DNA from: Flavobacteriales bacterium
GTDB lineage: Bacteria; Bacteroidota; Bacteroidia; Flavobacteriales_D; Crocinitomicaceae
Assembly (NCBI GenBank): GCA_947462255.1
Contig: CANHOA010000001.1
Location: forward strand, 62,001 to 126,000
Length of the DNA stretch: 64,000 bases
Direction: 5' to 3'
The position numbers and the translations under genes are program-made. Shown piece by piece: positions 4,710 to 44,611 of the stretch; the first letter of the stretch is position 1; every line of letters begins with the position of its first letter. The notes below the pieces were generated by a model. That model was given only the letters and a program-made list of their open reading frames with translations. It did no database searches and was not told where the DNA came from.

Positions 4710-5114
4710 TTATTGTGCTAGCAAGCCCTTTTTTTCAAAAACTTCCATGTAGTTAAAATTGGAAAGGATAATAGATTCCGGCGGGAATAAAAATTGCTTG
4801 TCATGTAAGACTTCATCCACCCAGAAACTCACCCAATATTCATTGTAAAGACCAAAGACATCCGGCATAATCGCTTCAATTTTTGCCACTTCATTAGGAA
4901 GTAAAACCTCTAGACTATGCCTTAAAGTAGCCGTTTTTATTTTTTCTCCCGTACTTGGGTGTTCGCCAAATCCAGCACTAGTAATGATAACGCCTTCAAT
5001 AATTTCTTCTCTGCGATTCCATAGATAGACGTTATACTCAGCATTAATTTCATTATCGAGAAGTATGAGTACCTCAATACCTTCCACTTTTGGACCTAAA
5101 ATACCTTCTTTCAT
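4710..5114 (-). CDS. Conserved hypothetical protein of Bacteroidota
   Basis: A 134-residue soluble protein with no signal peptide or membrane segment. The composition and strand-rich pattern (EYNVYLWNRRE, LRHSLEVLLP, NEYWVSFWVDE, DKQFLFPPESI) resemble a conserved family often seen in Flavobacteriales genomes without an assigned role. It overlaps the upstream serine hydrolase gene by 4 bases (ATGA), so the two are translated from one message. I do not know its function. ApaG was considered and rejected because the characteristic ApaG Gly-rich and RHW segments are absent. Confidence 0.75.
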   Translation of the reverse strand: MKEGILGPKVEGIEVLILLDNEINAEYNVYLWNRREEIIEGVIITSAGFGEHPSTGEKIKTATLRHSLEVLLPNEVAKIEAIMPDVFGLYNEYWVSFWVDEVLHDKQFLFPPESIILSNFNYMEVFEKKGLLAQ

Positions 5115-6367
5115 CGCTTTTGGCTTTTTTGGTTTAACATCCTATTTACCATCTTTAAATAAACAAACAAATCTCGTGGGTGCCCAATTTGAGAAATAAT
5201 ATTCTTGTTAATCATTCCTGTTTTCGACAGAAAAACATCTACTGCTCTAACATCCCTATCGCGATCATTTCCGATACGCACAATTACAATCTTACGAGAA
5301 GGAATCGTAATGATTAACTGGCCTTTAAATCCTATACAATAATAAACCCATTCTGATCCGCTTTTGTAGGCCCAAAAATGCAAACCATAACGCTGATTCC
5401 GTATACCTTCCATCGTTGATAAATCCCCCCATTTCACAACCTCATTCATGTAAGCTTCACTTACGATTCGTTTTCCAGAAAAAGTTCCCTTGTTAACTAA
5501 CAAAGAACCAATACGAGCAAAGTCGCGAGCTGTAGCATAATAACAACAAAATGATTTTTCGTTGCCATTTTCTCGATCTAAACTCCAATATGCAGGGTTT
5601 TCTGCACCCAAGGGACCCCAAAGCTTTGATGCTGCATAATTTGATAAAGTAATCCCCGTAGCCTTTTCTAGCACATGGCCAAGTACCTGCGTATTGCCAC
5701 TTTGATAGATAAACGCTTTACCTGGATCCGTAACAAGACGTTGCCGCATCATTAAATCATATAAATCATCCGTATAGTATGCCTCAGCATTTTCCGATAA
5801 GGGATTGGATCCACTTTCATTCCATTCAAAACCGGAAGACATCGATAAAAGGTGCCTTAGTGTAATTGATTTCCGACCATACGTCTTAAATTCAGGAAGA
5901 TAATGCCAAACAGGCTCATCAAGATTTTTTATCTTTTTCTCTTCTAATGCAATACCAAGTAGTAAACTAACAATTGATTTTGACATTGAAAAGGAGTTTG
6001 ATACTTTGCCTATACTGTGCTCATCCCAATATTTCTCATAGATAATAGTATCATTTTGCAAGATGATAAAAGCCTTACTATCGAATTGCTGATGATATTC
6101 TTCTTCTGATTTAGAAAGGTTGATTGCATCGTTTCCGGTGTTTATAGCCCATGGAATTGGGGAGGGGCTTTGGCTAATATTACGCTTATGGAAATTTGGG
6201 AGATCATAAATTCCCGGAGAGGAACGTCCGTGGAGATACGTTTGAAATATGCCTTCATACAAATACGTTTTCCCTGAAAATAAAATAAATAAATTTACTA
6301 TTAGCAGGATATAAAAAAGAATAATGCCGGTTTTTTTCAGGATTAAGACAACTAACTTTTTCATCAT
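5111..6367 (-). CDS. Beta-lactamase-family serine hydrolase
   Basis: A 418-residue protein of the class C beta-lactamase/penicillin-binding-protein-like hydrolase family. An N-terminal membrane anchor or uncleaved signal (residues 4-31) places the catalytic domain in the periplasm. The SxxK nucleophile motif SMSK is at residues 127-130, and the second catalytic motif lies in YQSGN near residue 221. The RHLLSMSSGFEW stretch is typical of this family. Such proteins are usually esterases, peptidases or amidases rather than true beta-lactamases; the substrate is not predictable. Two adjacent ATGs are possible starts. It is 5 bases downstream of lipB. Confidence 0.88.
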   Translation of the reverse strand: MMKKLVVLILKKTGIILFYILLIVNLFILFSGKTYLYEGIFQTYLHGRSSPGIYDLPNFHKRNISQSPSPIPWAINTGNDAINLSKSEEEYHQQFDSKAFIILQNDTIIYEKYWDEHSIGKVSNSFSMSKSIVSLLLGIALEEKKIKNLDEPVWHYLPEFKTYGRKSITLRHLLSMSSGFEWNESGSNPLSENAEAYYTDDLYDLMMRQRLVTDPGKAFIYQSGNTQVLGHVLEKATGITLSNYAASKLWGPLGAENPAYWSLDRENGNEKSFCCYYATARDFARIGSLLVNKGTFSGKRIVSEAYMNEVVKWGDLSTMEGIRNQRYGLHFWAYKSGSEWVYYCIGFKGQLIITIPSRKIVIVRIGNDRDRDVRAVDVFLSKTGMINKNIISQIGHPRDLFVYLKMVNRMLNQKSQKR

Positions 6368-31509: not shown

Positions 31510-32952
31510 TTAATTCCTAATTATTCTGATTGTTTGTTTCTCTCCTTTCAAAGTGAAGTTTAAGAAATAAATACCAGCTCTTAGGCTCTCTATATTGATG
31601 CTACTTTCATTGCCTTTTAATGCAATTACAGTTTCACCCATAATATTTGTAATGTTATTCAAGATTGCTGATGAATTAGATTCAACAGCAAGGGTTCCAT
31701 TAGATGGATTTGGATAAACCGATACCGCTTGGTTGGAGATATCTTCGATACCAGCAGGACAAGCAGAACAAGAATTATAACATACAACCCCTAAGTCAGC
31801 TATTCCAGCAACAGTATAAGAACGATTCGTAAATCCTCCATTTGTTACTGTGCAAGGTTCACCACCAACAAATTGCTCTTGACCATTCCAACCATCTAGG
31901 GTGAACTTATATTCAATTGCACCATTTGGTAATGGAAGAGTAACCTCCCAAATTCCATCCATATTTGCATCCGTCATTGGATTACACGCTCCACACCAAC
32001 CATTAAACGTACCATTTATGAAAACACCTGTGAAAGGTAAACCAACATAATCAGCCATGTCTACTTTGAAAGTAACATTGCTAGCACAAGCCGTACAACT
32101 ATTATAACAAACTGTTCCTAAAACAGCATCGCCAGTAACAGTGTACGAACGATTTGTAAATCCTCCATTAGTAACAGTACATGTCTCACCGCCAACAAAT
32201 TGTTCCTGACCATTCCATCCATCAAGTGTAAACTTGTACTCAATAGCACCAGCACCAATTGGAACTGTGGTCTCCCAAACGCCATCCATATTTGCATCTG
32301 ACATTGGGTTTGATGTACCATTCCAACCGTTGAATGTGCCGTTTACAAAAACACCTGTATAAGCAGGGCCTGTATACTGGCTCATATCTACTTTAAATGT
32401 GATATTTGGTGTTGGAGGATTAATAACTACCGTTTTTTGATAAACAAACTGCCACCATCCTGGACCAAAATTAATTTGAGCTGTCATTGTATTTCCTCCG
32501 TTAGAAAAAGCCACATTATACGTAATAGTGGAAACAGCTCCTGCTGGACTAGTGAGCTCACCTGCGTTGTGTACTTTAGCCAATCCTATGTGAGCACCTA
32601 AACCATTAACAGTTAGTGTACCTAAGGCTGCATCAAAAGTATAGCTTGCTACACCACCCGCATGAGGAGCGACAGGTGTGCCACATCCTTCAGGAGCACC
32701 TTGCCAAGCTTCCAACCAAGTACTTCCGTCCATGTAATGTGTCATAGCACCTCCTGGTGCAAATTTAATAGAGTCGTCGAACAAACAAGCTCTGGTTGTA
32801 ACATCGCCTAAAGAACTTGAAAACCAAGTTAGATTGTTCAATGCTGGGCCAACAGCTAAAGATCCTGCTTGACCTGCTAATTTCCATGTTCCCTCAATTT
32901 GGGCAGATACACCTAAAATTGGGAATGCTAAAAGAAGTAATAGTTTTTTCAT
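31510..32952 (-). CDS. Type IX-secreted protein with two glycan-binding-like repeats
   Basis: A 480-residue exported protein at the downstream end of the glycan locus. After the signal peptide (to about residue 17) is a domain of about 155 residues (GTWKLAGQAGSLAVGP start, WWQFVYQ end) often seen beside laminarin genes. Then come two 107-residue repeats (183-289 and 292-398), each with FKVDM, NGTFNGW, IEYKFTLDGWNGQEQFVGG and Cys pairs; this fold resembles starch-binding or glycogen-binding (CBM20/48-like) domains. The C-terminus is a type A T9SS sorting domain (SVYPNPSNGTLAVES). It is probably a surface or released glucan-binding protein. It has its own promoter region. Confidence 0.85.
   Translation of the reverse strand: MKKLLLLLAFPILGVSAQIEGTWKLAGQAGSLAVGPALNNLTWFSSSLGDVTTRACLFDDSIKFAPGGAMTHYMDGSTWLEAWQGAPEGCGTPVAPHAGGVASYTFDAALGTLTVNGLGAHIGLAKVHNAGELTSPAGAVSTITYNVAFSNGGNTMTAQINFGPGWWQFVYQKTVVINPPTPNITFKVDMSQYTGPAYTGVFVNGTFNGWNGTSNPMSDANMDGVWETTVPIGAGAIEYKFTLDGWNGQEQFVGGETCTVTNGGFTNRSYTVTGDAVLGTVCYNSCTACASNVTFKVDMADYVGLPFTGVFINGTFNGWCGACNPMTDANMDGIWEVTLPLPNGAIEYKFTLDGWNGQEQFVGGEPCTVTNGGFTNRSYTVAGIADLGVVCYNSCSACPAGIEDISNQAVSVYPNPSNGTLAVESNSSAILNNITNIMGETVIALKGNESSINIESLRAGIYFLNFTLKGEKQTIRIIRN
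31759..32079 (-). repeat. Second copy of internal 107-residue repeat
   Basis: Encodes residues 292-398 of the secreted protein. Protein identity to the first copy is high, including identical stretches around KFTLDGWNGQEQFVGGE and TVTNGGFTNRSYTV. It has an extra Cys pair (CGAC) absent from copy one. Confidence 0.85.
32086..32406 (-). repeat. First copy of internal 107-residue repeat
   Basis: Encodes residues 183-289 of the secreted protein. The two copies sit in tandem with a two-residue linker, indicating an internal duplication. Synonymous differences between the copies are visible, so it is not brand new. Confidence 0.85.
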
Positions 32953-33008: not shown

Positions 33009-33032
33009 CAAATATAGTAAGAAATACAATAA
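33009..33032 (-). promoter_or_regulatory. Promoter and putative operator of the secreted repeat protein
   Basis: The -7 element TATATTTG (minus strand, 33009-33016) lies 56 bases before the start codon. It overlaps an imperfect inverted repeat at 33012-33032 whose intact half is TTATTGT (minus strand). The other half matches 5 of 7 positions with the same 7-base spacing found before susC and the sugar transporter. Confidence 0.45.
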
Positions 33033-33068: not shown

Positions 33069-35405
33069 TTAATCAGTCAATAAGAATTTAAAATCAAGAG
33101 ACTGATTACCAATCGTAATGGTGTAATCTCCTTGTTCAAACATATCCATTCCTCTCTGATCAGCAAATTTTAGATCTTCGGGGTAAAGATAAAAAACAAG
33201 CTCTTTTCGCTCATTTGCTTGAAGCGTAACTTTCGAAAAACGTTTTAGACTTTTACCGGTAGGTACAAAGCTTGCATATTGGTCACTAAGATACAATTGT
33301 ACCACCTCATCTGTTTTCTGATCACTATCATTTTGGATAAAAACGGATACCCTAAGGCTATCATTTTTATGCATCGTGGAATTGTTAACAGTAAGCTTAG
33401 AGTAAGTAACTTTTGAATACGATAAGCCAAATCCAAAATCCCATTCTGGATCATATGCATCGAAAGGGCCATTCTTTGATCGGTCTACACTTCTCGGATG
33501 GTCATAAAATTCGATTACGCCATCATATTTTGGATACGTGTAAGGTAGTTTGCCGCTGAAATTTGCCTTGCCATACATCAAATTAATTAAAGCCTCTGCG
33601 CCATAATCTCCTGGGAGATAACATTGAATAATAGCCGAAGCGCTATCAACAATATCATGAATAATTCTCGGTCTACCTTCTAAAAGAACAAGTACAACCT
33701 TTTTATTTTTTGCATAAGCAAGCTTTGCGAGTTCACGCTGTTGCGGATCTAAATTTAAGCTATGAATATCCCCCGGTTTTTCCGTAGCGGGAAGCTCGCC
33801 TAAACAAAGAACAAGAACATCTGCTTGATCTAGCATTGAGTTATATTCTTTTAAGTCGGTAAAAACTGTTTTCTCAAATCCATTTTCATCAAGAGCAAGC
33901 GAAGCACCAGCAGCATATAAACAGTTTTCTTTGCCTAATTTTTGTTCAAACGCTTCTCTAATTGTTAAGCAGCCCTTTGTATTGTATTGTTTATCGACTC
34001 CTTGCCAAGTATGCGTCCAAGCCCCATTTAGAAAAATTAAATTATCCGCTGTAGGGCCAGCAATCATTACTTTTTGTTTTGTGTTTAAAGGAAGTATCCC
34101 TTGATTATTTTTCAATAAGGTTATTGATTCTGTAGCCGCTTGTTTAGCGATATTCTTAAATTTGGTTGATCCGAAATCTGGATACATCGAGAACGTTGGA
34201 ATTGGATTTTTAAAAAGATCCAGTTTTATTTTAACGCGTAAAATTCTTCGTACTGCATCATCTAATCTCTCCACCGTAATTTTCCCAGCTTTTACCGCTT
34301 CCATCATGAGTTTACAATATTCCTGATACTGAGGGCTGAGTGGCACCATGCTCATATCAACACCTGCATTAAACGATTGAATATACGCATCAGCAAGTGA
34401 CGGAGCTGTTCTATGCACCGTATGAAGCATAATAAAATCTTCCCAATCGGAGACGGCAAAGCCTTGAAATCCCCAATCTTGTTTTAATGTTTTGGTGATT
34501 AAATCATAATTCATGTGACCTGGAATACCATTCACTACACCACTATTAATCATCACCGTTAGGGCACCGGCATCTACTGCTTTTTTAAACGATGGCAAGT
34601 ACAATTCCGTCATGTATTTTTGAGGAATCCAGGCAGGAGTTCGATCTCTGCCACTTGTAGTTGCAGAATAACCGACAAAATGTTTCATGCAGGCTGCAAC
34701 GTGAAAAGCATCTATTCCGCCATTCCCTTGGTAACCAGTCACTATTGCTGCACCCATTTGTGAGGCTAAATAAGGGTCCTCGCCAAGCGTTTCAAATGTT
34801 CTCGACCATAATGGTTGACGTGCTAAATCCAAAACGGGCGAAAAATTCCAAGGAATCCCTGAAGCGCGCAATTCATAGGCTGTTATTTCACCAAAACTAC
34901 TCGCTAATGTTGGGTTCCACGTTGCAGCCAATCCTATTTCTTGAGGAAATAAAGTGCCTCCTATCGTGTAGTTTACTCCGTGAATAGCATCTACACCATA
35001 AATAATCGGAGCTTTCGAAAGGCCCTGCTGATAATTTCGATGAATAGACTTCAGAATACCTTCCCATTCAGTAAGACTTAAGGTATGGCTGCCGACATTT
35101 AATACAGAGCCTACTTTATACTCATCAATGGCCTCTTTTAATTTTTCTTCATCAATCTCTGCCACTGCTCTTGCTGACCCATCGGGCATTGTTTTCAGTA
35201 AGACATCAAGTGTAATTTGACAGGTCTGACCAACCTTTTCCGCTAAGCTCATCTTAGCAATCACACTATTAATTTCTTGTTCTTGTTCAACAGAAAGTAT
35301 CAAAGATGCTTGTTGATTAGATACAGGTGCGACAACTGCAGTAACACTTTTGCACGATGACAAAACACATAAACTCGCCACTAAAATGAACGAAATAACT
35401 TTCAT
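33069..35405 (-). CDS. GH3 family beta-glucosidase lipoprotein
   Basis: A 778-residue glycoside hydrolase family 3 enzyme. The ATG at 35405 starts a lipoprotein signal with lipobox LSSC (Cys at about residue 18). The nucleophile Asp is in GFAVSDWEDF (about residue 320), and substrate-binding KHFVGYSATTSGRDR lies before it. The alpha/beta sandwich domain (LVLCLGELPATEKPG) and a C-terminal fibronectin-III-like domain are present. GH3 enzymes release glucose from beta-linked oligosaccharides, which fits completion of laminarin breakdown in the periplasm after SusCD uptake. The gap to the GH16 gene is 36 bases, so one operon is likely. Confidence 0.94.
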   Translation of the reverse strand: MKVISFILVASLCVLSSCKSVTAVVAPVSNQQASLILSVEQEQEINSVIAKMSLAEKVGQTCQITLDVLLKTMPDGSARAVAEIDEEKLKEAIDEYKVGSVLNVGSHTLSLTEWEGILKSIHRNYQQGLSKAPIIYGVDAIHGVNYTIGGTLFPQEIGLAATWNPTLASSFGEITAYELRASGIPWNFSPVLDLARQPLWSRTFETLGEDPYLASQMGAAIVTGYQGNGGIDAFHVAACMKHFVGYSATTSGRDRTPAWIPQKYMTELYLPSFKKAVDAGALTVMINSGVVNGIPGHMNYDLITKTLKQDWGFQGFAVSDWEDFIMLHTVHRTAPSLADAYIQSFNAGVDMSMVPLSPQYQEYCKLMMEAVKAGKITVERLDDAVRRILRVKIKLDLFKNPIPTFSMYPDFGSTKFKNIAKQAATESITLLKNNQGILPLNTKQKVMIAGPTADNLIFLNGAWTHTWQGVDKQYNTKGCLTIREAFEQKLGKENCLYAAGASLALDENGFEKTVFTDLKEYNSMLDQADVLVLCLGELPATEKPGDIHSLNLDPQQRELAKLAYAKNKKVVLVLLEGRPRIIHDIVDSASAIIQCYLPGDYGAEALINLMYGKANFSGKLPYTYPKYDGVIEFYDHPRSVDRSKNGPFDAYDPEWDFGFGLSYSKVTYSKLTVNNSTMHKNDSLRVSVFIQNDSDQKTDEVVQLYLSDQYASFVPTGKSLKRFSKVTLQANERKELVFYLYPEDLKFADQRGMDMFEQGDYTITIGNQSLDFKFLLTD

Positions 35406-35441
35406 ACAATACAACTTACTATTTGATTTGATTTTCAATTC

Positions 35442-36530
35442 TTATTGAAAAACTCTTACATAATCCACGTACATAGATTGAGGCAAGACCGTAGTGCCAT
35501 CGGGATTTCCTGCGAAATTTCCGCCAACAGCCACGTTAAAAATTAAAAAGAATTTTTCCTGAAATTCGCTAAGTTCTGCAGGTGTTGTACTAACAGACTT
35601 AAATTCCACATTGTCCAAAAGCCAGTGAATCCCCGCTTGATCCCAAACAATTGAAAAGACATGAAATTCATCGGCAAATTTTCCGCTCGTTAAGGTTTTT
35701 GTACCCCCATATTGTGCATGAACGCCATTATCTTGCCAATGTACGGTTCCATATGTAGTTCTATCATTAGCCCCAGCGCCTCCCTTCATTTCCATGATAT
35801 CAATTTCACCACAAGCTGGCCAACCAGCAGAGGTGATATTATCCCCCAACATCCACAAAGCCGGCCACATCCCTTGACCGTATGGAAGGGCTGCGCGAAT
35901 ATCAACTCGACCGTATTTCCAAGATTTTAAGCCTTGGGTTTTAATTCTTGATGAAGTATACGCCTGTCCATTGAACTGTTCTTGTTTCGCCGTAATCTCT
36001 AATACCCCATTGGCAACGATCGCATTCTGATCAGTATAATATTGCAACTCATTATTCCCCCAACCCCACGAACCAGTGCCAATATCATAGGTCCAATCAC
36101 TAGACAAACTCGACCCATTAAATTCATCTTGCCAAACTAATGTATAATTTGGATACGTTAGCGGACTTGTATAACCCGAAGAAGGCTGACCGCCTTGACC
36201 ATTAGAGACAGTCACTTGCACTAAATCCGTTTTTGATATGTAATCAGCATAAGTAGCGTGAGCCTTAGTTTTAATGGTATATGTCCCCGACACTGTAAAT
36301 ACGTGTGTAGCGGTACCTGCTTGAGATTCCACCACTGTTGAATCATTCCCATGGTAAAATGTTACGGTATAAAAATTTGCGTTTTCAGCCTGGGCCGCTA
36401 CGTTTACTGTACCATTAGAAAAAGTGATGGTTGTAACAAGGTTGTTGGGTAAGGTAACGACAGGTAAAACGGGTTTTTTACACGCTGTAATTCCTGCAAA
36501 GAAAATAATCATTAAGTAATTAATATTCAT
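35442..36530 (-). CDS. GH16 family beta-glucanase (laminarinase-like) lipoprotein
   Basis: A 362-residue lipoprotein; the ATG at 36530 begins the signal with lipobox ITAC. A short PKD-like domain (about residues 30-110) precedes the GH16 domain. The catalytic signature is GEIDIMEM, with the ExDxxE residues Glu242, Asp244 and Glu247. WGWGNNELQYYTD and MWPALWMLGD are typical of endo-beta-1,3-glucanases. It probably sits on the outer surface, cutting laminarin for SusCD. Related agarases and porphyranases share the fold, but these motifs favour laminarinase. It starts 14 bases after the PKD lipoprotein gene. Confidence 0.92.
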   Translation of the reverse strand: MNINYLMIIFFAGITACKKPVLPVVTLPNNLVTTITFSNGTVNVAAQAENANFYTVTFYHGNDSTVVESQAGTATHVFTVSGTYTIKTKAHATYADYISKTDLVQVTVSNGQGGQPSSGYTSPLTYPNYTLVWQDEFNGSSLSSDWTYDIGTGSWGWGNNELQYYTDQNAIVANGVLEITAKQEQFNGQAYTSSRIKTQGLKSWKYGRVDIRAALPYGQGMWPALWMLGDNITSAGWPACGEIDIMEMKGGAGANDRTTYGTVHWQDNGVHAQYGGTKTLTSGKFADEFHVFSIVWDQAGIHWLLDNVEFKSVSTTPAELSEFQEKFFLIFNVAVGGNFAGNPDGTTVLPQSMYVDYVRVFQ

Positions 36531-36544
36531 CTTTTTAAAGTTAG

Positions 36545-37396
36545 TTATTCTGTTTTTAATTTCAAGTACCACTTCAAACCACCAGCATGGTGTCCATACT
36601 GTAGTTGCATGGTTGAATCAGTTAAATCTAATATTCGGTATGTTAATACCCCCGTGTAGAATCCTAAAAAGGATCCATTTGAAACGGTAATAGTAGGTGA
36701 GGTGCCTTCAGTTAAGAGCCAAGTTTTATCTAATTGATCTCCATACGGGGCAGTAAAATCGCCTAGGTTTTGAAAAGACCCTGGAAAGCTAGCGGACAAG
36801 GAGTTGTGCACATAAACGTCACCATTGGTAATCATATCAAACTTAAATCCGTTCAAAGTAAAAATATATTTGTCGTTGTAAAGTCCTGCCCCTGCTTTAT
36901 CCAAAGGACCTGCCGCCCACCACTCAGGAACAGTTCCTAAGGCACTTTCTGGGTCTGGCCCTACGCCCATATGCCCTGTTTGGGTAGAATCAATTACCCA
37001 CGTTTTAAATCCAGGACCAGTTGCACCCCCTGTTAACTTGGTAAATATTGGGTTGTTAAGGAGAGATAAATCTGTTTGAGCGATAACAACATCTTGAGTA
37101 GTGCTTCGGCTTCCACCTTTATTAAAGACGGTGAGCTTTATAGTATACGTTCCAGCGTATGGATAAGAGGCTACTGCTGTTGCTCCTTGCGCTTTTACCC
37201 CGTTTCCAAAATCCCACAAACATTGGTAATTCTGGCTGGTGGCCGTTAAATTAAGAACATTCGCACTTGTTGAAGAAACGCTATACGTAAACGATGCCTC
37301 AGCCAAAGTAGGTGGATTTCCTAATTGTGGATTATCTTTTTTACACCCAATAATGAGCAGAGAGATACTTGCTATTAAAAAAAGAGTCTTTTTCAT
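36545..37396 (-). CDS. PKD-domain lipoprotein of the glycan locus (SusE/F-position)
   Basis: A 283-residue lipoprotein; the ATG at 37396 begins the signal with lipobox IIGC. A PKD domain (CLWDFGNGVKAQGATAVASYPYAGTYTIKLTVFN) covers about residues 35-100. A domain of about 170 residues follows, containing TWVIDSTQTGHMGVGP and a Trp-rich C-terminus (GGLKWYLKLK). Proteins of this build sit next to SusD in laminarin loci and are thought to bind glycan at the cell surface, filling the role of SusE/SusF. The start is 10 bases past the susD stop. Confidence 0.82.
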   Translation of the reverse strand: MKKTLFLIASISLLIIGCKKDNPQLGNPPTLAEASFTYSVSSTSANVLNLTATSQNYQCLWDFGNGVKAQGATAVASYPYAGTYTIKLTVFNKGGSRSTTQDVVIAQTDLSLLNNPIFTKLTGGATGPGFKTWVIDSTQTGHMGVGPDPESALGTVPEWWAAGPLDKAGAGLYNDKYIFTLNGFKFDMITNGDVYVHNSLSASFPGSFQNLGDFTAPYGDQLDKTWLLTEGTSPTITVSNGSFLGFYTGVLTYRILDLTDSTMQLQYGHHAGGLKWYLKLKTE

Positions 37397-37406
37397 ATAT
37401 ATTAGT

Positions 37407-38867
37407 TTAATATCCATTATTTTGAGGCCAATTTCCGCCTGCTAAATCTATTTCCACTTGAGGTATAGGAAAAACCTCATGCTTTCCTACTACAAAACCA
37501 TTAATAAAATCGGCGGCTTTTCCTGTTCTAACTAAGTCAAAAAAGCGATGTCCCTCGCCAGATAATTCATAACGTCGTTCTCTGTAAATGACATCAAGGG
37601 AATTTACAGGAATGGGTTGAACACCAACTCGAAGACGTACTTGAGTAACTAAGGACTGTGCTGTGGCGGTATTTCCACTCTGATAATGCGCTTCAGCTGC
37701 CATTAAAAGCACATCTGCATAACGAATTACTCGATAATTTACAGGACTGGTTAAGTCGTTATCAGGCAAGCCTATTTCACCTTGTCTTTTGATGTATTTA
37801 TTATTGTAATAACCGCTATGCCCGCCAGCGCCTATAGCATAAGAAATCGATGATGGGTTTGGCTGTGTCGCTATAAAAGCATCAATATCTAAAATTGTCG
37901 CCCCTCTGCGAAGATCAAGTGAAGAAAAAGCATCATAAAGCTCTTGCGTTGGGAGATTATAACTATTTCCATCACCATAAACTGGTCCATTATATTGTCG
38001 TATGCCTTGAAAACCAACCGCTGCATTTCCTTCTAAACAAATGTAGCAGCCATAAGAACCTCCTTCTAAACCAGAGTATTGAACATCGAAGACCGTTTCA
38101 CTATTATTTTCATTACTAGCAGAAAATAATTGATTGTAATCAGGAATAAGGCTGTACATCCCCATGGCGATTACTTCATCAAAAGTTGACGCTGCTTGCG
38201 CAAATTTGTTTTGATATAAATAAGCCTTCCCTAAAAATGCTAATGCAGCTCCTTTTGTAGCGCGACCTTTTTGACTTGCAACCGGATTTAATATAGATGC
38301 CGCATATGTAAAGTCCTCTTCTATTTGAGCATAAACTTCTGCTTTCGGTGTTCTTGGCAATTGCATTGCCTCTTCGATACCAATTCTTTTATCAATAATA
38401 AGCGGAATGTCACCGAAAAACTTTACCAGTTCGAAATAATAATACGCCCGCAAAAATCTAGCTTCAGCAATAATATGCTCTTTTCCTTGAAAGTCTATTT
38501 TATCTTTATTCTCTAAAATATAATTTGCGCGGGTGATTCCAGCGTAATTCCATCTGAGTACATTTCGCAACTCATTGTTCACACCACCATGAGTCATGTC
38601 ATCAATTTGATGTAATCCTTGAGAGTCATTTACACTTTCTCCCCCAGCTATTGAATTATCAGAAGCTATTTCCCCAATCCAAAATGACATAAACGAACCC
38701 TGAAGTAAATCATATGCCCCAGTTAAAGCGCGTTCATAATCCTCCTTTGTTTCAAAAAAGTTTTCGACATCCTGAGTATAGGGAGGATCTATGTTAAGGA
38801 ATTTATCGCAACCTGCAGATAAAAACACAATAAATACACTAAAAATAACCTGTTTAAATCGCTTCAT
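37407..38867 (-). CDS. susD: SusD/RagB-family glycan-binding lipoprotein
   Basis: A 486-residue SusD homologue that captures oligosaccharide as the lid of the SusC channel. It has lipobox LSAGC near residue 20, followed by the typical FLNIDPPYTQDVENFFETKEDYERALTGAYDLL pattern (seen as ENFFETKEDYERALTGAY) and TPR-like helices. The SusD C-terminal motif RYADVLLMAAEAHYQSG and YRERRYELSGEGHRFFDLVRTG are intact. It starts 3 bases after susC's stop, which is characteristic of SusCD pairs. Confidence 0.96.
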   Translation of the reverse strand: MKRFKQVIFSVFIVFLSAGCDKFLNIDPPYTQDVENFFETKEDYERALTGAYDLLQGSFMSFWIGEIASDNSIAGGESVNDSQGLHQIDDMTHGGVNNELRNVLRWNYAGITRANYILENKDKIDFQGKEHIIAEARFLRAYYYFELVKFFGDIPLIIDKRIGIEEAMQLPRTPKAEVYAQIEEDFTYAASILNPVASQKGRATKGAALAFLGKAYLYQNKFAQAASTFDEVIAMGMYSLIPDYNQLFSASNENNSETVFDVQYSGLEGGSYGCYICLEGNAAVGFQGIRQYNGPVYGDGNSYNLPTQELYDAFSSLDLRRGATILDIDAFIATQPNPSSISYAIGAGGHSGYYNNKYIKRQGEIGLPDNDLTSPVNYRVIRYADVLLMAAEAHYQSGNTATAQSLVTQVRLRVGVQPIPVNSLDVIYRERRYELSGEGHRFFDLVRTGKAADFINGFVVGKHEVFPIPQVEIDLAGGNWPQNNGY

Positions 38868-38870
38868 GTC

Positions 38871-41800
38871 TTAAAATTTAAGTTGAACACCTACCATATA
38901 TGTTTTTGCTTGCGGATAAAATCCGTAATCTACTCCAGCTGCTAAAACTCCTGGAGAACCAATGTCTGGATCAAAACCTTGATACTTGGTTAAGGTAAAT
39001 AAATTGTTTACAGCTGTATAAATTCGGAAAGAATCTATTTTCAATCGCTTTAATTTTTGAGAAGGAACTGTGTAGCCCAATTGAATGTTTTTTAAACGAG
39101 CAAAGGAACCATCTTCAACAAAATAAGAAGAAAAAACATTATTTCTAGTCTGACCAGTAGTTACTCTTGGGTGCTCATTGGTCGATCCTGGTCCTGTCCA
39201 ACGATCTACCACATAACCTAACTGGTTGGCATAAGGTTGTTGGCGTTCGTAGTTTCTAATAATTTCCTGTCCGATAGCCGCATAAAGGCTTCCTGAGAGA
39301 TCAAACCCTTTGTATTTCAAATTAAATGCAAAACCCATGGTAAAGTCAGGAATTGGCGAACCCAAATACGTTTTATCTAAATCGCCATTAAAATTTACCA
39401 CACCATCACCATTTTGATCAACGAAGATTAAATCCCCTGGCTGAGCGCCATCCTGAACAACCGCTGCATTATCAATTTCATCTTGCGTTTGAAAAATTCC
39501 TGCCGTTTCGTAACCGAAAAAATAGCCGATTTCATATCCTGTTTGAAACCTTGTGGCTACATCTCCTCCTACGCTAAATTGCGCACCTGGAATATAATCA
39601 ACTCCTTCTGGAACTGCAGTAACTTTATTTGAAATTGTCGTGAAGTTTATGTTTAAATCAGCCGTGAATGGTTTTTTGCGCTGCGTTTTGTAAGCCAATT
39701 CCAATTCAACTCCCTTATTAGATACATTTCCAGCATTTATTATTGGCGGATATCCACCTGGGCCATAGGAGCCTAAAACCGCCGTTACTTCGGGCTGAAA
39801 GAGTAAATCGAAGGTGTTCTTGATGAAGTAATTTGTCGTAAAGTCTAATTTATTCCAAAATGTCATATCTGCACCAATGTTAAACTGTCTTGTTGTTTCC
39901 CATTTCAAATCTGGATTTGAGGGTCTTCCAATTGCAACGCCGGGCGTAATTACATCATTAAAAACATATACACCTTCTCCGTTTAACAATCCACGGTAAG
40001 CAAAGTTCGGAATCTGATCATTTCCTGATACACCAAAACTAGCCCTAAACTTTAAAAAGTTAATCCACTTAATGTTATAAAACTTTTCCTCCGATAGTAG
40101 CCATCCACCCGAAAAAGTTGGAAAAAAACCATAACGGCTATTCGGACCAAATTTACTAGACCCATCGCGTCTTAAAATAGTTGAGAAAAGGTATTTGGAG
40201 TCATAAGCGTATTCCAAGCGCATAAAGGAAGAAATCAAACGCTCTTTGAATTCCCACGAACCAACATTATTTAAAAAACCACCCTGTGCCGTATTCGCTG
40301 AAATATCGGCATAATCTAAAGAGTTATTCGGAATTCCGAAGCCAGTTCCATTAAGTGATTCGCCTTTCCGTTGAAAAATGGAAACACCTGCAGTTCCCTT
40401 AAAAGTATGGAGCTCTTGGAACGTTTTTTCATAATTTAAGAAACTTTCATAGCTTAAATCCAAATAGCTTGATCGTTCTTCGTAAACCGCTGCGCCACGC
40501 TCAATAAACACACTATCTGCAATCTCAACCGTTGGCGATTCCAGCGCTTCATTAATCGCTGTATTGGCATATTTTCCGTCACCATACCAAACCAAGGGTG
40601 AGAATACTTTTGAATTAATGATGGAATAATTATAATTGAATCGATTAGTAAAAGAAAGGTTTTCATTAATAGCATAAACAAACTCTTCTTTCCCAACGAA
40701 TTTTACAGCAGTTCCCCAGTTATATTGATTTTTAATTTGAGCAATTGGGTTAATAATATCGCTCACTTCTTCAAGATAAGAAAATTGACCATTAGGGGTA
40801 TAAACCGGCTCGTTTGGAAAAGCATTTATTGTATTGTACAAAACCGAACCAATACCATTTTCAGGCAAGGTATTCCTTGAATCATTGGAAAAAAGAAGCA
40901 CCGAATTTAACTTTAACTTTGCCGACATATCGGTACTAAAATTAAGTCGAGCATTGTATCTAGAAAAATGTGACTTAGAACCACCAACGATTCCATCTTG
41001 AGTAAAATAGCCTAAACCAATAGAATACTTGGTATTTAATGTACCACCGCTTAAACTTAAATTATGGCTTTGAACAGGTGAGGTAGTAAAAACGGAATCT
41101 TGCCATGGCGTGCCAATTCCAATATTTGTGTTGGCAAAAGGCATTGCTTGTCCGCCCATTGCGAACATTTCATTTTTTATTACCGCATATTCTTGAGCGG
41201 TCAGTAAATCAAGCTTTCGTGCGGTCTGTTGAATCCCGTAATACGCATTGTATTCAAATTTTGGCTTGGAATTCATGCTGCCATTTTTTGTTTCAACGAT
41301 AATAACACCATTCGCAGCGCGAACCCCATAAATTCCTGCAGTCGCATCTTTCAATACATTCACCGACTTTATATCAGATGGATTTAAAGCATTTAAGCCC
41401 TCTGAGTCATAAACAATCCCATCAACCAAGATCAAGGGATCATTATCGCCGAAAGTAGAGATTCCGCGTATTCTAATATTTGCAGAACCACCGGGCGAAC
41501 CAGAGTTTGTAGAAACATTTACTCCTGCAACTTGACCTTGTAAGGCTTGGTCAACTCGCGATATGTTTAGCTTTTCAATGTTCTCTCCTCCTACTTTTGT
41601 GCTGGCTCCAGTTAACTCTTTACTTTTAGTAGAACCATAACCAACCACTACCACTTCCTCAACATCTTTGGTAATGAAGTTAGACATAACAACATCGACA
41701 ATCTTTCTTCCACTAACCGGTATTTCCGTTTTCGCATAGCCCGAAAACGAAAAAATTAAAACTGCCTTGGCCGTATCGATTAGTGTAATGCTGTAATTCC

Positions 41801-41969
41801 CCTTAATATCGGTTACCACACCATTTTTTTTGCCTTTCTCAACAACTGTAACAAAAGGAATTTGCTCGTTTTGTTCATTAAGAACTACGCCAGAAACCGT
41901 AGTGCTTTGAGAAAAAGCATAGCTTCCAGAGAGAAACAATACAAAGGTAAGTAGTATATGTTTAATCAT
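38871..41969 (-). CDS. susC: SusC/RagA-family TonB-linked outer-membrane transporter
   Basis: A 1032-residue SusC homologue. The ATG at 41969 begins the signal peptide (cleavage near YAFSQS), seven codons inside the longest frame. It has an N-terminal CarboxypepD_reg-like domain (VSGVVLNEQNEQIPFVTV), a TonB-box-like EEVVVVGYGS, the plug signature IRGISTFGDNDPLILVDGIV and the C-terminal barrel. SusC imports oligosaccharides with energy from TonB-ExbBD, which is encoded at 61395 onward. The promoter region carries an inverted repeat shared with the transporter gene. Confidence 0.96.
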   Translation of the reverse strand: MIKHILLTFVLFLSGSYAFSQSTTVSGVVLNEQNEQIPFVTVVEKGKKNGVVTDIKGNYSITLIDTAKAVLIFSFSGYAKTEIPVSGRKIVDVVMSNFITKDVEEVVVVGYGSTKSKELTGASTKVGGENIEKLNISRVDQALQGQVAGVNVSTNSGSPGGSANIRIRGISTFGDNDPLILVDGIVYDSEGLNALNPSDIKSVNVLKDATAGIYGVRAANGVIIVETKNGSMNSKPKFEYNAYYGIQQTARKLDLLTAQEYAVIKNEMFAMGGQAMPFANTNIGIGTPWQDSVFTTSPVQSHNLSLSGGTLNTKYSIGLGYFTQDGIVGGSKSHFSRYNARLNFSTDMSAKLKLNSVLLFSNDSRNTLPENGIGSVLYNTINAFPNEPVYTPNGQFSYLEEVSDIINPIAQIKNQYNWGTAVKFVGKEEFVYAINENLSFTNRFNYNYSIINSKVFSPLVWYGDGKYANTAINEALESPTVEIADSVFIERGAAVYEERSSYLDLSYESFLNYEKTFQELHTFKGTAGVSIFQRKGESLNGTGFGIPNNSLDYADISANTAQGGFLNNVGSWEFKERLISSFMRLEYAYDSKYLFSTILRRDGSSKFGPNSRYGFFPTFSGGWLLSEEKFYNIKWINFLKFRASFGVSGNDQIPNFAYRGLLNGEGVYVFNDVITPGVAIGRPSNPDLKWETTRQFNIGADMTFWNKLDFTTNYFIKNTFDLLFQPEVTAVLGSYGPGGYPPIINAGNVSNKGVELELAYKTQRKKPFTADLNINFTTISNKVTAVPEGVDYIPGAQFSVGGDVATRFQTGYEIGYFFGYETAGIFQTQDEIDNAAVVQDGAQPGDLIFVDQNGDGVVNFNGDLDKTYLGSPIPDFTMGFAFNLKYKGFDLSGSLYAAIGQEIIRNYERQQPYANQLGYVVDRWTGPGSTNEHPRVTTGQTRNNVFSSYFVEDGSFARLKNIQLGYTVPSQKLKRLKIDSFRIYTAVNNLFTLTKYQGFDPDIGSPGVLAAGVDYGFYPQAKTYMVGVQLKF

Positions 41970-41987: not shown

Positions 41988-41995
41988 CAAATATA
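41988..41995 (-). promoter_or_regulatory. -7 element of susC promoter
   Basis: TATATTTG on the minus strand, 18 bases before the ATG at 41969. The nearest TTG upstream (42023-42025) is too far for a usual spacer and is part of an inverted repeat, suggesting activator-dependent use. Confidence 0.5.
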
Positions 41996-42007
41996 CTAAA
42001 AATATAA

Positions 42008-42028
42008 TTATTGTAAAAAGGACAATAA
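42008..42028. promoter_or_regulatory. Inverted repeat (putative operator) upstream of susC
   Basis: TTATTGT-N7-ACAATAA, a perfect 7-7-7 inverted repeat ending 12 bases upstream of the susC -7 element. Near-identical elements lie before the MFS transporter (44591-44611) and the secreted repeat protein (33012-33032). It is probably bound by the locus regulator. Confidence 0.5.
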
Positions 42029-42052: not shown

Positions 42053-42748
42053 CTACATTTTAAACTGATAATCACTAGTTTCAACCTTCGTTTTATATTC
42101 TTCTTTGGCAAAGGAAAATAGTTTTGCTGGGCGGTGCTTTACCATTTTTTGTTTCTCATCATGCGCTAGAAGCGGAACATGCTTTATTTTTTTTCTAAAA
42201 TTCGCTTTATCCAAAGGCTGATTATACGCATATTCATAGAGTTGCTGGAATTCGTTTAAGGTAAACCGATCCGGCAACATGTCGAAACAGATGGGTTCCA
42301 CGCGCAATTTTTGCTTAAGCAGTTCAATTGTTGTGGACATAATCAAGTTGTGATCAAATGCCAAAACTGGAATATTATGAATTGGAACCCAAGAAATTTC
42401 ATCTGCCCATGAAGATGCTTTTGCATTAAAATCCTCTATTCGAACCATTGCAAAATAAGAAACGGTGACAACTCGACCTTGAGGGTGGCGCTTAGGGTGG
42501 CCAAATGATTGTGCTTGATGCAAACCAACATCGGATAAACCAGTAAGGTCTTTTAAAATCCTGTTTGCAGCTTCGTCAAGATCCTCATCAGGATAAACCA
42601 AGTCTCCAGGTATAGCCCAAAAATTATTATACGGTTCCATTGCCCGTTTTATAAGTAACGCTTTTATCTGTCCTTGAGAATAACCAAATAACATGCAATC
42701 AACAGAAAAAGCGGAGGTAAAAAATTCGCTAAAATTTATACGGTACAT
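42053..42748 (-). CDS. NrtR/AraR-type transcriptional regulator with degenerate Nudix domain
   Basis: A 231-residue protein with an N-terminal Nudix fold (about residues 10-145) and a C-terminal NrtR-type winged helix (about 155-215; FTLNEFQQLYEYAYNQPLDKANFRKK). The Nudix box GDLVYPDEDLDEAANRILKD has lost the REUxEE catalytic glutamates (RILKDL instead), so it is unlikely to hydrolyse nucleotides. In Bacteroidota such proteins act as sugar-sensing regulators (the AraR type). It is co-directional with the sugar transporter gene, 14 bases after its stop, and adjacent to susC, so it is the likely regulator of this locus. Confidence 0.88.
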   Translation of the reverse strand: MYRINFSEFFTSAFSVDCMLFGYSQGQIKALLIKRAMEPYNNFWAIPGDLVYPDEDLDEAANRILKDLTGLSDVGLHQAQSFGHPKRHPQGRVVTVSYFAMVRIEDFNAKASSWADEISWVPIHNIPVLAFDHNLIMSTTIELLKQKLRVEPICFDMLPDRFTLNEFQQLYEYAYNQPLDKANFRKKIKHVPLLAHDEKQKMVKHRPAKLFSFAKEEYKTKVETSDYQFKM

Positions 42749-42762
42749 AGTGAAATATTTAA

Positions 42763-44574
42763 TTAATGTCCACTTGATGAAATTGAAAAATCAGTCAACC
42801 CTTGTTTCTTAAGGGTTCGTTCAACCAAAATAGCAAATAGTGCTAAATATGCAAAACAAATAACAGGAATAAAATAGGATGCTTGAATTCCAATTAAGTC
42901 AGCTAACTTACCTTGAATTGGGGGGATTATACCTCCCCCTAAAATCATCATTATTAAAAAGGCTGAGCCTTGAGATGTATATTTTCCTAATCCAGCAATG
43001 GATAGAGTAAATATACAAGGCCAAAGAATTGAACAAAACAATCCACCACTTAAAAAGGCAAAAACAGCAATGTTTCCTGTTGAAAATATACCTATCAGCA
43101 TTGCAAAGGCACCTAAAACTCCAAATACAAGAAGTGATTTTGCTGGTTTATCGCCAACAAAATAGAATGCAATTATCTGTATTATCACACAAATTATATA
43201 ATAATAAAGTTGACTAACATCATACTTAGCAATTGTATTGGTAAGTAAAATAACACCAAACGCTATTAATGGAATAAGGAATGTTAGTAGTTTTTTTGTC
43301 GTTGATTTAAAATTAAATGCACTTATAGCACCTGCCCATCTTCCAATCATTAAGCTACCCCAATACATGGAAATATATGGTGCGATTTCAGATGATTTTT
43401 TTCCTCCAAATTGAGCTTGTTTTAATAGTTCACCCAAATTTGATCCAATTGCAACCTCAACTCCAACATAAATAAAAATAGCAAGCATACCCAAAACTAA
43501 CTGAGGATAGCGCATCGCTCCCCACCCATCAGGATTACTGCTTGCCGCGATATTTGTAAATAATAAACTGCCAATTACTACGGCGAGCGCAATAAACAAC
43601 CACATCATTCTTGTTTTTTCTAGCGGTTGCTTTAGGTTTTTTATCTTAAGTTGAATTGATTTAGAATTGGTTTGACTTATGCTAATTTTACGATTAGTGT
43701 CCTTAAACAGTAGGCTGTCAACTTGTTGAGATTTTTCAGTAGGTGCAATAATAATATTTAATGAATCAACTCGAGCGTTAATTGCCCCTAATTTATTTTC
43801 ATATTGCACGATTTGTTTTGCTTCTTTTGAACTATAGCTTGAAAAAACAGGCGTGAAAATTACGATTAACAAACCTGTCATTATCAATAAACTTCTCAAA
43901 GCTTTTTTTGAGGGCTCAAATTTTTCATCAATTACTCCACTCGGAACTGCCTTAGAAAGTCCAAAAATAGCAGCCGCTGCGATGAATAAGATTCCAACAA
44001 CAGCATATAGAATGATCACTTTTATTAAATCTAATTGTTCAATCATTTCATCTGTAACCGCTGCAGAAGAGCCAAATAGTGCAAATGCTACAATGAGAGG
44101 CCCAATCATAGTTCCAAAAGAATTAACTCCACCTCCTAAGTTCACTCTTGTAGAACCTGTCGCTGGATCTCCTAATGAAATTGCAAAAGGATTGGCAGCA
44201 GTCTGCTGCAAAGAAAAGCCCAAAGCAACTATAAACAAGCCAATAAGCATACCCGAAAATGTATTTCCATATACTGCAAATATCATAGCGGTTGCGCCTA
44301 AAGCGGAAAATAATAATCCAAAAACAATACTTTTTTTATACCCCCATTTTCCAACAAAATCTTTTCCTGAAATAGAGCCCAGAATAAATAAAAATAAAGC
44401 CCCTAAATAATAGGCGCCATAGAAGGCAAAGTCTACCAATTGACTTTGAAATTGATCTAAATGAAAATAACTTTTGCAAAAAGGGATAAAAACACTATTT
44501 CCTGCAGCTATAAATCCCCAAAAAAAGAAAACGATTGTAAGTGTGCCTAACGCACTAAAATTTGTTTTTTTCAC
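42763..44574 (-). CDS. Sugar MFS transporter, FucP-like with internal insert
   Basis: A 603-residue inner-membrane sugar:proton symporter of the FucP/glucose-galactose type ([49 protein letters not shown]). It starts with GTG at 44574. The family is usually 400-450 residues; here the link between TM6 and TM7 carries two extra membrane helices (about 227-246 and 324-343) flanking a hydrophilic stretch of about 75 residues, which should face the periplasm. It probably imports glucose released by the GH3 enzyme. The regulator gene follows 14 bases later. Confidence 0.9.
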
Positions 44575-44590
44575 CCTTATTAATTTTAAA

Positions 44591-44611
44591 TAATTGTCGA
44601 AAATACAATAA
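44591..44611 (-). promoter_or_regulatory. Putative operator over the sugar-transporter promoter
   Basis: Plus-strand TAATTGT-N7-ACAATAA differs at one base from the susC element. Its 7-base spacer and the first base after it (44598-44605) read TATTTTCG on the minus strand, a near-match to TAnnTTTG. The candidate -7 element is therefore enclosed by the repeat, 23 bases before the GTG start, as expected for a repressor site. Confidence 0.45.

Follow-up and report, generated by a model that had tools for sequence, protein, structure and literature searches.

The closest described relatives of the regulator studied here belong to the NrtR family. SoNrtR of Shewanella oneidensis (PDB 3gz5, 3gz6, and 3gz8) is an ADP-ribose-responsive repressor of NAD genes. 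BtAraR of Bacteroides thetaiotaomicron (BT0354; PDB 5bs6, 5dd4, 5ddg, and 5deq) is responsive to L-arabinose; according to the part of its published description available to us (PMC4666351), Arg34, Arg86, and His131 hold the arabinose, the sugar is a negative effector, and in the crystal operator, GTGT-TACTTTT-ACAC, Arg180 intercalates at the TG step (Table 2 of that paper). A third member, BtXylR (BT0791), is predicted for xylose in the accessible portion of PMC3878776 and also represents a sugar-linked branch within the Bacteroidota.

We analyzed a 64,000-nucleotide stretch of a Crocinitomicaceae genome, referred to below as the window (assembly of 2.67 Mb in 42 contigs, given as 95% complete), in which a regulator of this kind lies within a predicted beta-glucan locus. 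Our main reading, to which we assign a probability of roughly three in four, is that the protein is a dimeric NrtR/AraR-type repressor that controls a laminarin regulon, extended in sister genera to laminarin and glucose genes, and that a glucose-type sugar releases it. The predicted beta-1,3-glucan switch would be a small cytoplasmic one-component regulator, a class other than the hybrid two-component systems (HTCS) that the accessible part of PMC7157763 describes for gut Bacteroides. Nudix-type sugar regulators such as AraR and XylR are already known; a beta-glucan-tied branch that has a distinct operator and an altered DNA-reading residue, or any Nudix regulator of a beta-glucan locus, was not found described in the open-licence literature searched, which consisted mostly of titles and the beginnings of abstracts, without supplements, and is no proof of absence.

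The Regulator and Its Degenerate Nudix Box

The regulator reading frame (Table 1) is exact in strand and at both ends, and its orthologues align from the identical start. Its three Pfam scores all exceed their own cut-offs (NrtR_WHD, 66.9 bits; NUDIX, 40.6 bits; AraR_C, 38.1 bits). AlphaFold2, given a 29-sequence alignment, produced a two-domain fold with a mean pLDDT of 86.7 (residues 1–10 below 50), and the nearest solved structure to this model is BtAraR (Foldseek E 5.8e-24; TM 0.82–0.85 for the 5bs6 chains; phmmer 3.3e-48), followed by SoNrtR. The first-pass annotation of this DNA, made from its letters alone, had proposed an NrtR-type winged helix behind a Nudix domain and had suggested structure prediction as a check; profile and model agree with it on both the helix and the broad NrtR/AraR-type class. 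As in the NrtR family at large, a Nudix-fold N-terminal domain precedes the NrtR winged helix, the Nudix signature is impaired, and a palindromic operator is found in silico at the regulator's own predicted regulon.

The Nudix box reads D49-LVYPD-E55-DLDEAAN-R63-I64-L65-K66-D67-L68-T69-G70, which departs from the catalytic signature G-x5-E-x7-R-E-U-x-E-E-x-G-U. Two of the three glutamates of the active R-E-U-x-E-E motif are replaced by hydrophobic residues (I64 and L68) and the third by aspartate, so that the loss of the metal-binding glutamates, first noticed as RILKDL in place of REUxEE, is upheld. The accompanying statement that the glycine frame is kept holds for the last glycine (G70 in the window's regulator, not kept across all orthologues) and not for the first, whose position is D49, an aspartate in 42 of 42 aligned orthologue rows. 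These residues support an NrtR/AraR-type regulator rather than an active hydrolase. It is scarcely credible that the protein is still a catalytic Nudix hydrolase with an incidental winged helix: the upstream E55 and R63 of the box are retained, but isoleucine and leucine occupy the E64 and E68 positions, all five NAD-linked Bacteroidota rows of the alignment retain R-E-x-x-E-E, and the recognition helix is highly conserved among orthologues and has a matching candidate operator.

Table 1. Features of the regulator locus, with window positions unless another contig or locus is named
Feature	Position	Strand	Remarks
NrtR/AraR-type regulator, 231 aa	42053..42748	-	Degenerate Nudix domain (~1-150) and winged helix (~152-223)
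MFS sugar transporter, GluP/FucP-like	42763..44574	-	TIGR01272 167 bits, under cut-off 202.55
SusC-type TonB-dependent transporter	38871..41969	-	ATG at 41969; ORF list begins at upstream TTG 41990
SusD-type protein	37407..38867	-	Closest solved structure 6gcz
PKD-domain protein, perhaps a surface glycan-binding lipoprotein	36545..37417	-	Lipoprotein inferred from N-terminus
GH16 endo-1,3-beta-glucanase (laminarinase) candidate	35442..36572	-	Profile and solved-structure match
GH3 beta-glucosidase candidate	33069..35438	-	Profile and solved-structure match
Secreted protein, two CBM48-like modules and type 9 secretion tail	31510..32952	-	Profile search
Operator candidate 1	42008..42028	.	TTATTGTCCTTTTTACAATAA as read on the minus strand; 0 mismatches; precedes susC
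Candidate -7 promoter element	41988..41995	-	TATATTTG (TAnnTTTG), 12 bp downstream of operator candidate 1
Operator candidate 2	44591..44611	.	1 mismatch; end 16 bp before transporter start codon
Operator candidate 3	33012..33032	.	2 mismatches; right half overlaps -7 box
Second Nudix regulator group, members	L073:9654-10400 (window's genome C10:65674-66351)		Also L226-L231, L243, L252, L255-L257, L259

A Predicted Beta-Glucan Locus

The locus is encoded wholly on the minus strand; its genes run transporter, regulator, susC, susD, PKD protein, GH16, GH3, and CBM48 protein. The window's GH16 is closest to the GH16 endo-1,3-beta-glucanase 4crq and to laminarinases, its GH3 is closest to BoGH3B, and the SusD of 6gcz is known to bind branched laminarin, as stated in the part of PMC11351036 available. 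The substrate is likely laminarin or another beta-1,3-glucan, to judge from these gene products. No NAD gene was recognized in the window locus, and no xylose gene is among its genes. CBM48-like modules are of a type usually tied to alpha-glucans; the protein that carries two of them here sits within the predicted beta-glucan regulon, and among solved structures it had no sequence match at E 0.001.

The transporter is 95% identical to the copy in locus L034 (7856–9715) and 48% identical to that in L033 (10101–11519). The regulators show the opposite pattern, L033's being closer to the window's (92%) than L034's (81%), which suggests that the transporter has a history different from its neighbors', with gene replacement inside the locus.

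The regulator's position beside laminarin-type genes, noted in the first-pass annotation, proved to be conserved. GH3 and/or GH16 homologues are present in 38 of 40 orthologue loci examined (L033–L072, chosen for contig extent and spread out of 99 orthologue genomes) and are absent beside the regulator only in L045 and L059; the genome of L045 does carry, on a different contig (L190), a CBM48/GH16 pair with a site. Orthologous susC is present in 22 of the 40. The regulator usually follows the transporter in the window's genus and mostly follows GH3 in other genera. In L042 and L047, a regulator of this branch is followed by CBM48/GH16 homologues, and no susC/susD homologues were detected in the stretch. 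One genome (G099) carries two such regulators in opposite orientation within a single locus (L065:1510-2211 and 4839-5531), 57% and 67% identical to the window's.

Distribution and Phylogeny

The regulator has a match at E 1e-5 or better in 159 of the 240 genomes of its family, and an orthologue proper (at least 55% identity, counted from the match table, with G079, G199, and G223 counted from fragments only) in 99. Across a phylum sample of 392 Bacteroidota genomes, for which completeness of at least 90% was requested, 122 match at 1e-20. The best match outside the family is only 48% identical, in keeping with the suggestion that this class of regulator is uncommon for such loci.

We placed the regulator in a maximum-likelihood tree of 67 rows (IQ-TREE), none of them a proven hydrolase. 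Labels were assigned from neighboring genes, and AGLU, ARA, SUS, NAD, and XYL need three changes each and are not clean. The 16 laminarin-linked rows form one branch (100/100), nested in a larger group (95/92) that also contains the rows with alpha-glucan or glycolysis neighbors (GH13, GH65, pfkA, gap, and a BadF-type kinase, named partly by Pfam and partly by eye). Which rows are sister to the laminarin branch is unsure (89/79). Arabinose-linked rows with BtAraR, xylose-linked rows, and NAD-linked rows all fall outside. The tree separates the regulator from NAD-type NrtR and from AraR proper, to which the first-pass annotation had compared it: by this placement it is neither, and represents a branch inside the glucan-linked clade. 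The gene context agrees, since the orthologue loci show glucan genes rather than NAD biosynthesis genes and the regulator clusters with neither arabinose nor xylose genes.

A second group of Nudix regulators lies beside alpha-glucan or glycolysis genes across the Bacteroidota, mostly with GTGT-N7-ACAC sites, and perhaps regulates alpha-glucan or glucose use (members in Table 1). Tandem pairs of Nudix regulators also occur (L233, L235, L264–L272), most beside susC/susD, with serine or proline at the intercalating-arginine position; a search of these loci yielded no operator common to them.

A Conserved Palindrome at the Locus Promoters

A 21-bp palindrome, TTATTGT-N7-ACAATAA, precedes susC, the transporter gene, and, in degenerate form, the CBM48 gene. 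The susC copy (operator candidate 1) is the sole exact match in the window's genome. The element downstream of it fits TAnnTTTG, which, with TAnnTTT[G/A], we take to be the −7 promoter box consensus, so operator candidate 1 would cover the −33 region. No −7 box was recognized near operator candidate 2. Operator candidate 3 is weak when taken by itself; a near-identical copy recurs upstream of orthologous CBM48 genes. At up to two mismatches, the window contains four hits against 1.44 expected, a number matched by 1 of 100 shuffles; the two-mismatch hit at 41285–41305, inside susC, is taken as chance. In the whole genome, eight places match at up to one mismatch, four of them inside ORFs, and two-mismatch sites mean nothing alone (58 versus 80 for the reversed control).

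An inverted-repeat search across orthologous loci returned ATTGT-N7-ACAAT in 21 of 24 susC upstream regions, where the best dyad in five shuffles reached 4. The same dyad occurs in 12 of 24 transporter, 10 of 39 GH3, and 6 of 23 CBM48 upstream regions; slightly commoner dyads exist for the transporter (AATTA-N3-TAATT, 14 of 24) and GH3 (GAATT-N8-AATTC, 11 of 39), and the CBM48 figure is barely above shuffles (5). At up to two mismatches, the 21-bp palindrome precedes 22 of 24 susC, 22 of 24 transporter, 20 of 23 CBM48, and 12 of 39 GH3 genes, counts that come from nonindependent orthologous promoters and from the same loci in which the motif was discovered. It is rare before GH16 (2 of 37) and Nudix genes (1 of 45 regions, three of them belonging to distant Nudix genes), as expected inside operons. 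We accordingly set aside a site before the regulator gene itself, which seems to lie downstream of the transporter or GH3 in a shared operon.

The geometry of these promoters bears on the sign of regulation. A TAnnTTT[G/A] box lies 12–14 bp below the palindrome at 17 of 22 susC promoters, with four at 6 bp and one without; at 9 of 20 CBM48 promoters the −7 box overlaps the right half of the palindrome; and at the transporter (−7 box recognized in 0 of 22) we infer that the operator lies over the promoter. The susC arrangement, with the palindrome upstream of the −7 box, would also be open to an activator that sits on the palindrome and, with sugar bound, switches the genes on. The CBM48 overlap and the closeness of the transporter site to its start codon should instead block polymerase, and the sugar acts negatively on BtAraR (PMC4666351, in the part available), all of which make activation unlikely. 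We consider with good confidence that binding represses.

The Palindrome across Genomes and Away from the Regulator

The exact palindrome is present in 71 of 99 family genomes with the regulator and in 13 of 141 without it (Fisher p 3e-24, uncorrected for kinship). A reversed control gave 21 hits over the family against 134, in 3 of the 99 and 16 of the 141 genomes, respectively. The window's genus has 77 exact palindromes in 86 genomes, against 3 for the control. The 28 regulator genomes that lack an exact site may reflect degenerate sites and incomplete bins.

Within the genus, we followed 11 off-locus sites among those listed, plus two later. Four of the 11 precede CBM48 genes beside GH16 or GH3 (L188, L189, L190, and L192), two, from genomes in which no orthologue was detected, lie before the transporter (L193 and L194), and both later sites also precede the transporter. 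One site (L191) is intergenic and unexplained. Four exact palindromes (L184–L187) of related genomes lie inside one gene, which looks homologous by its N-terminus, and were rejected as chance shared by descent.

A further 45 sites were compared: 31 in genomes with the regulator (29 in other genera and two in the genus, a few of them at contig ends or close to the regulator) and 14 in genomes without it, these being all such sites outside the genus. Twenty-nine of the 31 are non-coding, versus 6 of the 14, whose other eight lie inside ORFs. Targets were named from BLAST, Pfam, and NCBIfam searches of representative proteins or from N-termini in common. On this basis, 25 of the 31 (including L313, where the site lies within a small, doubtful ORF) adjoin a glucanase or glycosidase, sugar-transporter, zwf, gap, or recurrent secreted-protein gene; for the remaining six the target is none, coding, or unrelated. 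Glucose-6-phosphate dehydrogenase (zwf) adjoins four sites (L299, L303, L314, and L316), GAPDH (gap) three (L309, L311, and L312), sodium:solute symporters three (L295, L308, and L320), MFS transporters six (three divergent from a glycosidase), a glycosidase-like protein family seven, the recurrent secreted family five, and GH16 one, some sites adjoining two target kinds. Among the 14 sites without the regulator, the gene that follows is a sugar porter in one case, a PDH E1 gene in another, and a secreted protein in a third. Both sites of genome G115, which is 82% complete, precede genes of target kinds, and its genus-mate G116 has the regulator.

A one-mismatch operator candidate in the window's own genome (L095:1501-1521; C15:48181-48201) lies 16 bp ahead of a gene whose secreted product carries a type 9 secretion tail. 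That protein belongs to the recurrent secreted family; it is 63% identical to L294's over 189 residues, and homologues stand behind exact sites in L292, L294, L298, and L309.

All the zwf, gap, and symporter sites lie in genera outside the window's, and there the regulon appears to have expanded to include glucose metabolism. These exact sites in sister genera, before zwf, gap, and transporters of the sodium:solute or MFS type, together with the alpha-glucan and glycolysis links of the closest clade, would also suit a protein that mainly regulates glucose use or glycolysis in general and gained the laminarin locus as one of its targets, rather than a laminarin switch. We regard that account as possible but doubtful, for of the 13 sites followed among those listed in the window's genus, eight lie before CBM48 or transporter genes and none before zwf or gap, and the regulator gene stands beside GH3/GH16 in nearly all orthologue loci.

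AT-rich palindromes are common as operators, and the palindrome might belong to another regulator, with the Nudix gene a passenger; two genomes of the genus (G176 and G235) indeed have the exact site before the transporter and no detected orthologue. Against this very unlikely alternative stand the co-occurrence of site and gene across 240 genomes, the match of spacing and core to the AraR operator, and the GTGT version found at paralogue loci, described below. We conclude that the regulator very probably binds TTATTGT-N7-ACAATAA.

A Changed Half-Site and a Changed Reading Residue

The palindrome shares its spacing and the TGT/ACA core with the BtAraR operator GTGT-N7-ACAC. Of the AraR DNA contacts Lys179, Arg180, Asn181, Lys184, Lys204, and Arg205, four are kept in the regulator, whereas the intercalating Arg180 is replaced by Ala182 and Lys204 by His205. 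In the 40 laminarin loci, all with Ala182, TTGT sites occur in 38 (2.1 expected) and GTGT in one, so the branch departs from the GTGT-type operator of AraR. The window's genome also encodes a paralogue, 47% identical and beside GH13, GH65, and transporter genes, that keeps the intercalating arginine; GTGT-N7-ACAC is present in its intergenic region and in 15 of 16 paralogue loci.

We extended the comparison to 40 loci picked from the phylum sample, scanning nearby non-coding DNA with expectations from base composition. Arginine is kept in 37 of them, with GTGT-N7-ACAC in 25 (0.8 expected) and TTGT in two (2.4 expected). When Arg-keeping relatives are pooled, GTGT sites occur in 40 of 53 loci. 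The three loci with serine or proline had neither GTGT nor TTGT sites, and for the Ser/Pro-type relatives no clear common palindrome emerged from a set of 15 loci that included three of Arg type; the residue-to-operator rule is therefore based on just two states. Because the laminarin loci are kin, moreover, the Ala182/TTGT association counts as one evolutionary change, and K189, P192, N202, and K204 likewise set the branch apart. The Arg-to-Ala replacement is the leading candidate, from these alignments, for the cause of the TTGT specificity.

The Ligand Pocket

The regulator's R35, R87, and H133 are the equivalents of the arabinose-holding Arg34, Arg86, and His131 and are invariant in 42 of 42 rows. 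They are kept in NAD-linked relatives too, and so are neither diagnostic nor proof of a sugar ligand. The position of BtAraR pocket Gly48 is aspartate (D49) in all 42 laminarin rows; Asp, Asn, and Tyr in 13, 12, and 4 of 29 alpha-glucan-linked rows; and always glycine in arabinose (6), xylose (3), and NAD (5) rows.

A nucleotide-like ligand (ADP-ribose, NAD, or a nucleotide sugar) would make the locus follow cofactor or energy status, and a nucleotide-sugar metabolite was among the ligands first proposed. The top NCBIfam model, NF050029 (145 bits, against a cut-off of 400), describes an ADP-ribose-responsive repressor, and SoNrtR is a structural match. SoNrtR Arg98, however, which contacts ADP-ribose, is Gln90 here, glutamine in 38 of 42 rows and arginine in five of five NAD-linked rows; this disfavors a nucleotide sugar. 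NAD-linked rows also branch outside the sugar-linked clade, and the locus has no recognized NAD gene. We therefore judge this class of ligand improbable. SoNrtR Lys76 corresponds to Leu68, a position that does not discriminate, since NAD-linked rows have glutamate there.

A free sugar is the likelier ligand, as far as residues can tell, and it probably acts as the inducer. The exported-looking GH3, the GluP-like transporter, and the zwf, gap, and sugar-transporter sites of sister genera point to glucose or a near derivative. The off-locus targets raised our estimate for free D-glucose from a little short of even to slightly better than even. Glucose would arise from maltose too, and the resulting cross-induction needs explaining.

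Discussion

Our favored reading, a sugar-released repressor, can be put as a sequence of steps. The sugar-free dimer would sit on the palindromes at the susC, transporter–regulator operon, and CBM48 promoters and block transcription. Laminarin would be cut by GH16 and imported via SusCD, the exported GH3 would trim the products to glucose, and the MFS transporter would carry glucose into the cytoplasm. There, glucose would bind the dead Nudix pocket (R35, D49, R87, F131, and H133) and turn the winged helices out of register, as L-arabinose does in BtAraR, releasing the genes. The alternatives weighed above overlap one another and parts of this reading, and their probabilities need not sum to one. 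Our account is strongest for the operator and for how it is associated with the regulator, and weakest for the ligand.

We also offer an evolutionary reading that we hold to be evenly poised. The laminarin branch would derive from a glucan-sensing ancestor that lost the intercalating arginine and moved to TTGT-N7-ACAA, staying separate from the GTGT-using alpha-glucan-linked paralogue in the same cell; it would then have taken over zwf, gap, and transporters in sister genera, with the pocket Asp/Asn as a glucose contact. On the same terms, many Bacteroidota NrtR-type regulators would share the GTGT-N7-ACAC operator and the intercalating arginine, whatever they sense.

These findings may be relevant in several ways. 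First, they provide concrete candidate operators, a predicted inducer, and a predicted regulon that reaches glucose metabolism in sister genera. Second, they point to one residue as the candidate determinant of a new DNA specificity. Third, they suggest that a single operator rule may cover many Nudix regulators of the Bacteroidota, those of arabinose, alpha-glucan, and NAD genes as well as the laminarin branch. Finally, putative operators for the laminarin-gene switch become readable from genomes.

Compared with BtAraR (PMC4666351, in the part available), the regulator has the same domain order and fold, ~35% identity, a degenerate Nudix box, the Arg/Arg/His contacts, a 21-bp palindromic site with a 7-bp spacer (here a candidate), and control over Sus-type loci (here predicted). 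It differs in Ala182 for Arg180, His205 for Lys204, a TTGT rather than GTGT half-site, Asp49 for Gly48, a link to beta-glucan rather than arabinose genes, and a separate tree branch. With SoNrtR it shares the two-domain architecture, whereas Gln90 replaces Arg98, linkage to NAD genes is absent, and identity is 26–28% in Foldseek alignments. Xylose-linked relatives in our tree set form another clade with glycine at the Asp49 position (3 of 3). Finally, the locus shares with the beta-1,3-glucan loci of gut Bacteroides, as the accessible part of PMC7157763 presents them, the set of GH16, GH3, SusCD, and glycan-binding protein, and differs from them in its predicted cytoplasmic one-component regulator in place of a periplasmic HTCS sensor.
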